Part shown: positions 33,938 through 38,243 of the stretch, piece by piece
Layout: the number at the start of each line of letters is the position of its first letter
How positions within the stretch are numbered: the first letter of the stretch is position 1
DNA from: Acidiluteibacter ferrifornacis
Lineage (GTDB): Bacteria > Bacteroidota > Bacteroidia > Flavobacteriales_E > Vicingaceae
DNA length: 64,000 nucleotides
Assembly (NCBI RefSeq): GCF_009909615.1
Contig: NZ_WWNE01000003.1
Location: forward strand, 433,248-497,247
Reading direction: 5' to 3'
The notes under the pieces: model-generated
What the model was told of the DNA's origin: nothing
What the model saw: the letters and a program-made list of their open reading frames with translations, nothing else
The model's database searches: none
Translations under genes and position numbers: made by a program

Positions 33938-36385
33938 GTGAAGGAAAAGGAAAATAAAAAAAATAAAGGAATCCTATTTTGGATTATTCTTTTTTGGTGT
34001 GTAGTAATCATTCCAATGGGATTATTTACGATGCTTATATATGGGACTGCGCATGAGTGGTTTGGAGAATTGCCTAGTTTTGAAGAATTAGAAAATCCTA
34101 AAAGTAATTTAGCTTCTGAGGTATATACTTCTGATGGAAAAGTTCTGGGTAAATATTTCTATCAGAATAGAACTAATGTTCAATATGAAGAACTTTCAGA
34201 ATTTCTTCCAGTTGCCCTAATAGCAACTGAAGATGAACGCTATAACGAACATTCAGGAATTGATTTTAGATCTTTAGGGAGAGTTTTTATAGGTCTCGTT
34301 ACAGGACAGACAGGTAGCACTGGAGGTGGAAGTACCGTTTCACAACAATTAGCCAAAAACCTTTTTCCTAGAAAAGATTTAACCAAGTTTCAATTGGTGA
34401 TGCGAAAATTCAAAGAGTGGGTAATTGCTGTAAGATTAGAGCGACAATACACTAAGGAAGAAATTGTAGCCATGTATTTCAACACTTTTGACTTTGTCAA
34501 TAATGCAGTAGGAATCAAATCAGCAGCAACAGTATACTTCAACAAAACTCCTCAGGAACTGAACATCACAGAATCTGCTATGCTAGTGGGTATGTTAAAG
34601 AACCCAGCATTATTTAATCCATTGCGATTTTACGATACGACACTTCACCGTAGAAATGTAGTATTGACTCAAATGATTAGAAATGGAGCAATTGACAAAA
34701 TAGCATATGACACACTAAAAACAAAACCATTAGGTGTAGATTTTCAACGAGTAGATCACAAAGAAGGGATAGCACCCTATTTTAGAGAGATCCTAAGGTC
34801 TGATTTGAAAAAGATTTTTTCTGAAATTGATTCAACTACAGGAGAACTAAAGTATCGCAAAGCAAATGGCAAGGGTTATGACATTTATAAAGATGGATTG
34901 AAAATTTACACCACTATTAATTATGAGATGCAAAGCTATGCCGAGTGGGCGATGACTAAATACCTCGGAGAAAAGCTTCAGGCTGACTTTTTTAAAGATT
35001 TACAGCGCAAGAAGAAAAATCCATTTGACTGGAGAGTAACGGATGAAGAAGTTGATCAAATTATGAAATCAGCAATGCGAAGAACAGATCGTTACAATGT
35101 AATGGTAGGAGTACAATGTGCCAATTGTGGAAGAAGAGGAAAATATGTAGAAGAAATCACAGAAAATGGAGTGAACTATTTTGAATGTCAAGCAGATGAC
35201 TGCCACCATAAAAGACGGGTAACTCCAAAAGATTCAATTGATATTATTTTCAATACCCCTGTTCCAATGACTGTTTTTTCATGGAAAGGAGAAATTGACA
35301 CAGTCTTGTCTCCTATGGATAGCATTAGATATTACAAAAGCTTCCTGCAAAGTGGTTTGATGTCAATGGATCCAAATACAGGCCATATAAAAGCATGGGT
35401 TGGTGGTATTAATAGCAAATACTTTGCTTTTGACCACGTAGCACAAAGTAAACGGCAAGTAGGTTCTACTTTTAAACCATTTATGTATGCTGTAGCGATT
35501 GATGAGGGATACTCACCATGCTACGAAGTGCCGAATGTTGCGGTAACCTTTAAGAGAGGAGAATTTGGTTTATTAAAAGATTGGTCGCCTCAAAACAGTG
35601 ACCCAAAAGATGTTGGATACAATGTGACCTTAAAGTATGGTTTAGCAAACTCTATGAATACTGTTTCTTCCTTTTTGATGAAGAAATTTGGTCCAGACCG
35701 GGTAGTAAAAATGGCCAGAAATTTAGGAATTAAGAGCCATTTAGACCCTGTTCCTTCTTTGGTTTTAGGAGTCGCTGACCTTTCAGTTTATGAAATGGTG
35801 GGTGCTTTTGGAACTTTTGCGAACAAAGGAATCTATACTGAACCCATCTATATTACTCGAATAGAGGACAAAGATGGCAATGTGATCAAAGAGTTTATTC
35901 CTGAAACGAAAGAAGTAATCAGCGAAGAGACAGCCTACACCATGGTGAATTTGATGGAGGGAGTCACTTCATATAACTACAATAAGGCGAAAGGGAAAAA
36001 GACTGCAGGTACGGGTATTCGTTTACGATTCCAGAGCCACGAATATGGTGGATTTACGGGGCCCATTGCAGGGAAAACCGGTACCACACAGAATAATTCA
36101 GACGGATGGTTCATCGGCATGATGCCCAACCTGGTGACAGGTGTGTGGGTTGGTGCAGAAGATAGGAGTGTGAGGTTCTCAAGAACTGGTGATGGTCAAG
36201 GTGCAAATTCTGCCCTTCCGATTTGGGGATATTACATGAAAAAAGTAATTTCAGACTCTACTTTAAAGGTAAAAAATATAGCCTTTGAAAAACCCGAACA
36301 TCAACTCAGAATAGAGTTAGACTGTGATAAAACGCAAGAAGACAATAATTTTAACGACAACGAAGAACCTAATTTTGGAGGATAA
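33938..36385 (+). CDS. Penicillin-binding protein 1A with a Cys4 insertion
   Basis: 815-residue bifunctional peptidoglycan synthase. One membrane helix (about 14-35), GT51 glycosyltransferase domain with [14 protein letters not shown] (catalytic Glu98) and [14 protein letters not shown], and transpeptidase domain with SxxK Ser510-Lys513 (QVGSTFKPF), SMN, and KTG at 713-715. Between the two domains lies an insertion with Cys394, Cys397, Cys417 and Cys422 (CANCGRRGK...[10 protein letters not shown]), a zinc-ribbon-like pattern that I do not expect in this family. GTG start at 33938. Its stop overlaps the scoA ATG by one base. Confidence 0.93.
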
Positions 36386-37077
36386 TGAAAAAGGTAGTTG
36401 CAAATGCTGAAGAAGCGATAAAAGGAATTGAAAGTGGTATGACTCTTATGTTGGGAGGTTTTGGACTTTGTGGCATTCCTGAAAAATGTATTGAGGCTTT
36501 ATCAAAAAGTAAAATCACAAATTTAACATGCATCTCAAACAATGCTGGAGTAGATGATTTTGGCTTAGGATTTTTATTGAAAAATAAGCAAATCAAAAAA
36601 ATGATTTCTTCCTACGTGGGAGAAAATGATGAATTTGAGCGCCAAATGTTAAGTGGAGAGTTAGAAGTGGAATTAACCCCACAAGGCACTTTGGCTGAAA
36701 AATGTAGAGCCGGAGGGGCAGGAATTCCAGCATTTTATACACCAGCAGGGTATGGAACAGAAGTAGCAGAAGGTAAAGAAACCAGAGAATACAACGGTAA
36801 AATGTATATACTAGAAGAAAGTTTAACGGCTGACTTCGCTATTGTTAAAGCCTGGAAAGGCGACACCAAAGGGAATTTAGTATTCAAGGGGACGGCTAGA
36901 AACTTTAATCCAGTAATGGCAACAGCTGGTAAGATTACTATTGCTGAAGTAGAACATTTAGTAGAACCAGGCGAATTGCATCCGAATGAAATTCATACTC
37001 CAGGTATTTTTGTACATCGAATTTTCGAAGGAAAAGATTACGAAAAAAGAATTGAACAACGAACTATATCTAAATAG
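36385..37077 (+). CDS. scoA: 3-oxoacid CoA-transferase subunit A
   Basis: Alpha subunit of a type I CoA-transferase (succinyl-CoA:3-ketoacid), used in acetoacetate or related acid metabolism. 230 residues; the N-terminal [45 protein letters not shown] and the ending [10 protein letters not shown] agree with ScoA. ATG overlaps the PBP1A TAA by one base. Its final codons and TAG lie inside a perfect 40-bp palindrome. scoB is 512 bp downstream, split off by an inserted unit. Confidence 0.93.
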
Positions 37078-37102
37078 GCAATATTGCCTATTTAGATATA
37101 GT
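37063..37102. repeat. Perfect 40-bp palindrome over the scoA stop codon
   Basis: Every base from 37063 to 37102 pairs with its mirror partner about 37082.5; the centre is GGCAATATTGCC and the arms read ACTATATCTAAATA / TATTTAGATATAGT. In RNA it would form a long hairpin at the end of scoA. It has no T-run, so it is not a standard terminator; an attachment or target site is possible. Confidence 0.85.
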
Positions 37103-37118
37103 CAATGAACCAATGATT

Positions 37119-37568
37119 TAATTTAACAATGTAACAATGAAGAATTGCTTCGTAATTTTTATAATGAATTAATACAAAGTAAATGCAAAAAGAGAATATT
37201 ATAGTCACAAAAACGATAAGTTTTGCTCTAGCCATTATCTCTTATGCTGAATTACTTGAAGAAAAGAAAAAATATATTATCGCAAGACAACTTTTAAAGT
37301 CTGGTACCTCAATAGGTGCAAATATGCATGAAGCACAGAATAGTGAAAGTAAGGCGGACTTTATACACAAAGTAAAACTTGCTGCAAAAGAAGTAGAAGA
37401 AACAAAGTATTGGTTGACTCTCTGTAAAAAATCAGAAAGTTATCCTTTTGAAGAAAGTTTAGAAATCCAAATAAATGAAATTGGTTTGATTATTTATAAA
37501 ATATTATCGAGCTCAAAAAAAGCTTCTAAGATATTGTAACATTTGAGAATTGTTACATTGTTAAATTA
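37119..37568 (+). mobile_element. Inverted-repeat unit carrying a four-helix-bundle gene
   Basis: A 450-bp segment between scoA and scoB is bounded by a perfect 20-bp inverted repeat: TAATTTAACAATGTAACAAT at 37119-37138 and its reverse complement at 37549-37568. The sole gene inside is a four-helix-bundle (23S-rRNA intervening-sequence type) protein. No transposase is present, so movement, if any, would depend on other functions. No target-site duplication could be identified with confidence. Confidence 0.6.
37183..37539 (+). CDS. Four helix bundle protein (23S rRNA intervening sequence protein family)
   Basis: 118-residue helical protein. The motif RQLLKSGTSIGANMHEAQNSESKADFIHKVKLAAKEVEETKYWL is diagnostic of the family first known from insertions in 23S rRNA genes of Leptospira and others. 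Free-standing copies are common in Bacteroidota; the function is unknown. It sits within a 20-bp inverted repeat and interrupts the scoAB operon, in the same direction. Confidence 0.9.
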   Translation: MQKENIIVTKTISFALAIISYAELLEEKKKYIIARQLLKSGTSIGANMHEAQNSESKADFIHKVKLAAKEVEETKYWLTLCKKSESYPFEESLEIQINEIGLIIYKILSSSKKASKIL

Positions 37569-37589
37569 GTCAATTGATAAATTAAGATT

Positions 37590-38243
37590 ATGTTAGATAA
37601 AAACGGAATAGCGAAACGAATTGCACAAGAATTACAGGACGGTTTTTACGTGAATCTTGGAATTGGGATTCCTACACTTGTTGCAAATTATATCCCTGAA
37701 GGAATTGATGTTACCCTTCAATCAGAAAATGGATTACTAGGTATGGGCCCGTTTCCTACAGAAGAAAACGTAGATGCTGATTTAATAAATGCAGGGAAAC
37801 AAACCATTACAACACTTCCTGGCTCCGTATTTTTTGATTCAGCTATGAGTTTTGCTATGATTCGCGGAGGAAAGGTTCAATTGACCGTTTTAGGTGCTAT
37901 GGAAGTATCAGAAACAGGGGACATTGCTAACTGGAAAATACCGGGTAAAATGGTAAAAGGAATGGGTGGGGCTATGGATTTAGTAGCATCAGCTGACAAT
38001 ATAATTGTTGCCATGATGCACGCTAATAAAGCAGGAGAATCCAAGCTATTAAAAAAATGTAGCCTCCCTCTAACAGGTGTGGGTTGTGTTAAAAAAATAG
38101 TAAGTAACCTAGCCGTAATTGATGTAACAGAAAGAGGTTTTGAACTCAAAGAAAGGGCTCCAGGTGTTACTGTGGAAGAAATTATCTCACTTACAGAAGG
38201 AACTTTAATTGTGGAAGGTGATATTCCTGAGATGAAAATATAG
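37590..38243 (+). CDS. scoB: 3-oxoacid CoA-transferase subunit B
   Basis: Beta subunit, 217 residues. The catalytic glutamate that forms the CoA thioester is Glu46 in [35 protein letters not shown] and MGGAMDLV follow, as expected. It should pair with ScoA although an inserted unit separates them, so its expression may be reduced or arise from read-through. Confidence 0.94.

Follow-up and report, generated by a model that had tools for sequence, protein, structure and literature searches.

In the window (the whole 64-kb stretch of DNA that was analysed), a gene for a four-helix-bundle (4HB) protein stands between scoA and scoB and is bracketed by an exact 20-bp inverted repeat. The question raised by this locus is what such a framed gene is, and whether its ends are those of a small mobile or passenger element, as the original prediction had proposed. 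The protein belongs to the PF05635/S23p family, for which structures have been solved and, to our knowledge, no function has been described.

Structure of the locus

The following features were located (positions are those of the window):

36385..37077, + strand: scoA (3-oxoacid CoA-transferase subunit A), upstream operon partner (TIGR02429, E 2.5e-79)
37063..37102, no strand: perfect 40-bp palindrome over the scoA stop codon (20-nt arms, 100% complementary, spacer 0)
37104..37138, + strand: 5' arm, five AAT cores at 8-nt spacing, AATGAACC AATGATTT AATTTAAC AATGTAAC AAT (array pattern match, G000:C16:470351-470385)
37119..37138, + strand: 20-bp repeat TAATTTAACAATGTAACAAT, inner portion of the 5' arm (window pattern search)
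37145..37155, + strand: small hairpin TTGCTTCGTAA, 3' of the 5' arm (array-plus-hairpin pattern)
37183..37539, + strand: 4HB gene (PF05635/TIGR02436; 23S rRNA intervening sequence (IVS)-protein/S23p family), 118 aa (profile matches, AF2 fold)
37549..37583, - strand: 3' arm, inverted, five AAT cores at 8-nt spacing, AATTTATC AATTGACT AATTTAAC AATGTAAC AAT on the minus strand (array pattern)
37549..37568, - strand: exact inverted copy of the 20-bp repeat, inner portion of the 3' arm (window pattern search)
37590..38243, + strand: scoB (3-oxoacid CoA-transferase subunit B), downstream operon partner (TIGR02428, E 1.1e-96)

The original prediction had the 20-bp inverted pair at its exact coordinates and the 4HB gene between scoA and scoB, which the PF05635/TIGR02436 and TIGR02429/TIGR02428 profiles bear out. 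The pair makes up the only two matches to the 20-mer in the 64-kb window at ≤ 3 mismatches (expected 0.09; two matches were reached in 0/100 shuffles). Longer AAT-core arrays, the 40-bp palindrome and the hairpin of the 5' array had not been noticed before. The 20-mer is the best-matched stretch of two longer inverted arrays (37104-37138 and 37549-37583), and the 3' array carries two extra in-phase AAT cores inward, to 37533. When the 20-mer was searched genome-wide, the exact copy was found at this locus only; at 3 mismatches it matched five other places in the genome, and the reversed-pattern control gave six matches.

The 40-bp palindrome consists of the 3' end of scoA and its own inverted copy, immediately before the 5' array. 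It is absent after scoA in the junction text of the sister genome G001 and looks like a fold-back duplication at the edge of the array. The RNA fold of 37050-37200 gave a z of -5.55. The genome of the window (G000) has three 4HB genes, all mutually different; the second (L001, G000:C15:8418) has an internal TAG stop, and its arms are heptamers (TTAGAAG).

The encoded protein

The protein matched PF05635 at 69.4 bits (cut-off 33.8; E 3.6e-19) and TIGR02436 at 77.7 bits (cut-off 24; E 7.2e-22), and its AF2 model (pLDDT 93.3) has four helices in a four-helix-bundle fold. The nearest solved structures both contain five chains: BT_0352 (2rld; profile E 6e-31) and Xcc0516 (2gsc). The structural match to 2rld had an E of 1.7e-6 and a TM of 0.82/0.89 (TM 0.75-0.83 on query). 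Xanthomonas S23p is given as a homopentamer in the accessible part of PMC4990558, and by analogy with these solved relatives the window protein would be a homopentamer as well. Purifying selection was evident from a median dN/dS of 0.066 (17 usable of 66 pairs).

Inverted arrays around 4HB genes

For each gene, the 160-nt upstream flank was scored locally against the reverse-complemented downstream flank, and permutations were made by swapping flanks between genes. The family set held 110 gene entries, from which one with a short flank and ten that were > 90% alike were removed to leave 99 non-redundant genes. Own flanks scored 15.3 on average vs 8.9 when swapped, and the family sum (1511.5) exceeded all 10,000 permutations (maximum 983.5). 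A score ≥ 16 was reached by 42% of 90 own flanks and by 2.2% of 320 flanks swapped within the same genome. Among 248 control ORFs in the loci, six scored 16 or more, four of these being second 4HB genes. Direct-repeat scores were also raised in the 99 family genes, with a smaller effect (11.7 vs 9.1).

The same test was applied across the phylum (48 of 50 loci, two having been missed by the search profile) and to the subfamily of the window gene (80 named loci, the best 80 of 575 relatives, all kept, including several broken or short ORFs); in both, 0/10,000 permutations reached the observed value. In about half of the phylum-wide loci the arms are weak or undetectable, a score of 12 being reached by 22/48. 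The gene itself was present in 46/46 family genomes searched and in 116/148 phylum genomes. The array-ended 4HB unit is a general design in Bacteroidota, and the window unit is one copy of it.

Period and number of cores

The arms are degenerate tandem arrays with a 7- or 8-nt period. Lag 7 was best in 71/110 family genes and 30/48 phylum loci, and lag 8 in 72/80 loci of the window subfamily (best 80 of 575 relatives); shuffled flanks had no clear lag preference. On a tree of 231 proteins, of which 184 were labelled (91 as '7', 93 as '8') and 47 carried no label, genes outside 85-200 aa being excluded, the period changes nine times; in 1000 shuffles of the labels the mean was 61.5 changes and the minimum 49. 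Repeat units are diverse in sequence (AATTTGAA, CTAGAAC, AGTCTTC and others). That the period nevertheless persists between deeply diverged proteins suggests that array and protein are functionally linked.

Consecutive [AG]AT cores were counted in 87 subfamily elements. Of the upstream arms, 32 have exactly five, 23 have four and 7 have six; of the downstream arms, 33 have exactly five, 22 have four and 7 have six. Five was still the mode when one gap was allowed, and runs beyond three cores were rare in shuffled flanks. In heptamer arms the counts drop past five cores (from 17 to 5 upstream and from 15 to 3 downstream), and five is a ceiling there, not a peak.

Gain, loss and movement of units

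Gene and arms travel together. In non-syntenic pairs with ≥ 70% protein identity, arms were shared in 9/10 (wrong-orientation control 0/10; the ten pairs overlap in membership, gene L072 being in five), and among pairs with < 30% protein identity they were shared in 1.1% of 2835. In the best non-syntenic pairs DNA similarity stops near the arms; two units of one genome (L034/L075) are 77% identical over 486 nt.

Three sites (A-C) were compared that are collinear in close relatives, with flanks approximately 80-95% identical. At site A the unit is present in two genomes and the gene absent in two (64 and 43 bp spacers). At site B the unit is present in two genomes, 81 bp with a different inverted array stand in one and another ORF in one, and at site C the unit is present in three genomes and another ORF in one. 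At all three sites the whole spacer is replaced, coding end to coding end. Whole units have been gained or lost at collinear sites, and either direction is possible. At a second junction in the genus, G000 has a full unit plus approximately 2.8 kb of other DNA, G001 has heptamer arms and no gene, and G002 has a broken 4HB gene beside an inversion breakpoint. An inversion of approximately 17 kb separates G001 from G002 and has one breakpoint at a 4HB unit (L348/L349, G002:C45; L347/L350, G001:C9).

Shared arms without synteny, together with presence and absence at collinear sites, uphold the part of the original prediction in which the gene and its inverted repeats form a unit. The part in which the 20-mer served as a transposon-like terminal repeat was not supported: each end is an array of some five cores with 7/8-nt spacing. 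No recombinase was found within the unit.

Age, host sites and orientation

Of the 40 family genomes in which both sco genes were readable, 15, from six genera, carry a member of the same subfamily at the scoA/scoB junction, and three of these 15 copies are broken (G001, G013 and G034). The subfamily has this home in 39/80 named loci as well (best 80 of 575 relatives), a count skewed towards scoA/scoB because the query came from there. The 4HB divergence tracks that of scoB (Mantel r 0.63 at n = 46; permutation maximum 0.27), yet the scoB tree implies ten or more changes in presence of the gene. The window copy is an old resident, mostly vertically inherited, and not a recent arrival; with a repeat confined to one site and a long residence there, the idea that this copy had moved recently was largely refuted.

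Other homes of the subfamily are sufB/sufC (11 loci) and sdhA/sdhB (9 loci), again among the best 80 of 575 relatives. Homes (sco, suf or sdh) change five times on the protein tree of 69 labelled genes, 18 'other' sites carrying no label, and in shuffles the mean was 20.6 and the minimum 16; relocation is therefore rare. The scoA-scoB junction of G025 (L138) holds a D12-class DNA methyltransferase gene (PF02086) and an ORF of no known family, and the junctions of G010, G040 and G005 hold other unrelated ORFs. The spacer looks like a general insertion hotspot.

Where both neighbours were resolved, the 4HB gene was co-directional between two co-directional genes in 82/91 family loci (99 examined), 30/41 phylum loci (48 examined) and 73/74 subfamily loci (from the best 80 of 575 relatives). 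Antisense placement between co-directional genes was found in 0, 3 and 0 loci, respectively, for a total of 185 sense vs 3 antisense. Random DNA insertion would yield both orientations, so either only sense copies survive, because copies need a host promoter, or insertion is linked to the transcript. The window unit is probably transcribed from its host operon. A parallel is published in the occurrence of 23S_rRNA_IVP genes within cas operons (PMC3936711, in the part available).

Arrays without a gene

A loose array pattern, (AAT N5) x5, had 15, 47 and 25 matches in the three genomes of the genus, and the reversed pattern had 0. In G000 the matches lie at seven places: the two arms of the window unit and five others, where no PF05635 match was found. 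The order of array plus hairpin recurs in G000 in the window unit and at two places without a 4HB gene, once in G001 and once in G002 (reversed control 0).

Gene-less octamer arrays stand in intergenic DNA at L007/L159 (G000:C14:245349), L156 (G000:C11:55397) and L009 (G000:C20:226616), and two of these three are followed by a TTGCTTYGCAA-type hairpin, as in the window unit. A second recurrent hairpin, which starts with CATCTCGATACAACTTCGC, adjoins the arrays at L156 and L155, in two genomes of the genus, and is probably a dispersed palindromic repeat. At the scoA-scoB junction of G038 (L110), in place of the 4HB unit there is a 153-bp spacer in which a hairpin accompanies a heptamer array (CTAGGTT) without a gene.

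Pairing of the arms and possible recognition of the cores

The window unit folds as a panhandle (z -4.56), which is expected because the arms are inverted. A register test was run on the 25 of 59 elements that have arms of equal length. In-register units agreed at 3.13 of 5 spacer letters and off-register units at 2.98, each being the better in 12 elements, and 619/5000 shuffles reached the observed value. An arm was more like its own partner than like the arms of other elements in 24/25, and among close relatives each arm retained its own version (143/148 pairs). What the two arms have in common therefore seems to be a vocabulary of units and not a base-paired sequence, which favours a common factor that recognises repeated cores. 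The register test set aside the RNA stem as the selected feature, if weakly at n = 25.

For such a factor the encoded protein would be the obvious candidate; the number of cores agrees with the five chains of its solved relatives, although chains in a crystal entry are an indirect guide to the oligomer. Inverted arms would be odd for a reader of RNA only, because the 3' arm has its cores on the other strand.

Explanations

Our preferred reading, held tentatively and at somewhat under even odds, is that of a 4HB unit with five-core inverted arrays of 7/8-nt period, carried in sense within operons, whose protein recognises both ends and which relocates rarely. A homopentamer ring would recognise both terminal arrays of the unit that encodes it, with one protomer per core, which would explain the five cores, the clade-specific period and the unit vocabulary shared without base pairing. 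The rare relocation would use an enzyme supplied in trans.

A stronger form of this reading, which we regard as possible but on balance doubtful, makes the whole a selfish unit: a pentameric ring would read five cores at both ends, the gene would be promoterless and expressed from the host operon, and the unit would relocate between junctions. Were it true, the rRNA IVSs that encode the same protein would be a special case in which the unit landed in rRNA.

The rival that survives best, although we consider it unlikely, is a free-standing counterpart of the 23S rRNA IVS, in which the arms pair as a stem and an RNase III cut separates the 4HB message from that of the operon. Here the stem itself would matter, and not the reading of cores by a protein. 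The gene family and the layout of an ORF between complementary ends are those of rRNA IVSs (PMC4990558, in its available part), and both the sense orientation within transcripts and the window panhandle agree with it. Yet the units in register were no more alike than those out of register, close relatives retained arm-specific versions, and a stem has no need of a fixed 7/8 period or of five cores.

Less likely again is autoregulation by a ring, in which a pentamer would, in the manner of TRAP, bind its own message through the five 5' cores and cover the ribosome binding site, with any mobility incidental. The median distance from the end of the 5' array to the ATG is 8 nt in the 87 subfamily elements, the period follows the protein clade and the protein is under purifying selection, all as this would have it, but the inverted 3' array after the stop codon and the dispersed gene-less arrays are left unexplained.

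We give slightly less credence still to a MITE-like, non-autonomous DNA element with terminal inverted repeats that was moved by some transposase, the 4HB gene being a passenger. Such an element would account for the inverted ends and the gene-less relatives, and Y1 transposase genes are in fact present (four in G000 and one in G001). However, target duplications were looked for by eye and not seen, either at the sco site or at sites A-C; old insertions could have lost theirs. Antisense insertions are also nearly nil, the exact repeat is single-site and the period is tied to the protein. A simple transposon with terminal inverted repeats was rejected on the first three of these points. No inverted 7/8-nt arrays were found beside the Y1 genes of G000 and G001 in the stretches read (two of the five with masked N), on which ground Y1 was rejected as the local mover; one one-sided array lies approximately 2.3 kb from the G001 Y1 gene.

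Replication slippage, by which short tandem repeats would grow by mutation near AT-rich spacers with no link to the protein, was already disfavoured and is very improbable: similar gene-less arrays do occur (heptamers at the G038 sco site, octamers elsewhere in the genus), but slippage would give neither flanks that mirror each other with one shared unit, nor a period that follows the protein tree, nor a preference for five cores, and inverted arrays are not equally frequent around unrelated genes.

Three other candidates were rejected. There was no reverse transcriptase for a retroelement (0 PF00078 matches in G000, with 3/14 control genomes positive), no phage carriage in the viral contigs scanned and no defence system by PADLOC (0 families for the 4HB protein).

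No description of array-ended 4HB units was found in the literature searched, which included the available part of PMC4679880 and had most subscription journals outside its reach; within that literature, the array ends and the period law are apparently new. The mirrored arrays, the mode of five cores, the 7/8 period along the protein tree and the strong bias towards sense placement make the open question of S23p function testable. The framed-gene design is a concrete lead on what 4HB genes do and how they spread.

Comparison with known systems

In TRAP, each subunit of a ring reads one of a series of evenly spaced triplets. The likeness proposed here, of a ring that would read evenly spaced cores with one per subunit, is an analogy only, since TRAP has 11 subunits, an RNA target and a different fold.

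In REP/REPIN-RAYT systems, one protein gene is flanked by inverted short repeats, and many gene-less repeats are dispersed in the genome. The 4HB unit is alike in having one gene with flanking inverted short repeats plus dispersed gene-less repeats. It differs in that the 4HB protein has no HUH (Y1) domain and its repeats come as tandem arrays of 7/8 nt period.

Avd of diversity-generating retroelements is pentameric in solved structures. It shares the four-helix-bundle fold with the window protein, with structural matches to 4dwl/8ub7 that are weak by Foldseek (E 0.16 for 4dwl and above), and the window genome, unlike those systems, has no reverse transcriptase. The resemblance of PF05635 to Avd is noted in the part of PMC10053308 that was available.

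Intergenic 7-nt tandem arrays are likewise known as the heptamer repeats of Xanthomonas (GGGAATC), Nostoc and Beggiatoaceae (TAACTGA), and those of Xanthomonas include 70-75 convergent inverted pairs (PMC4692102, available in part). Xanthomonas has both GGGAATC arrays and the 4HB protein Xcc0516. No mention of a 4HB gene was found in the accessible portions of the two heptamer-repeat papers.

Also among the closest known systems are the 23S (and 16S) rRNA IVSs that encode S23p/23S_rRNA_IVP, described in the available parts of PMC4990558 and PMC11270868 as an ORF with complementary ends, in sense in its transcript and patchy in distribution. The window unit is alike in protein family, in complementary ends around an ORF, in sense orientation and in patchy distribution. 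In contrast, it lies between protein-coding genes, the window had no Rfam match and holds no rRNA, and each of its ends is a tandem array of some five cores whose period is specific to the clade. It is best filed as a variant related to the rRNA IVSs that lacks their defining location, and rRNA intervening sequences, dispersed heptamer repeats and free-standing 4HB genes may possibly share a common frame.
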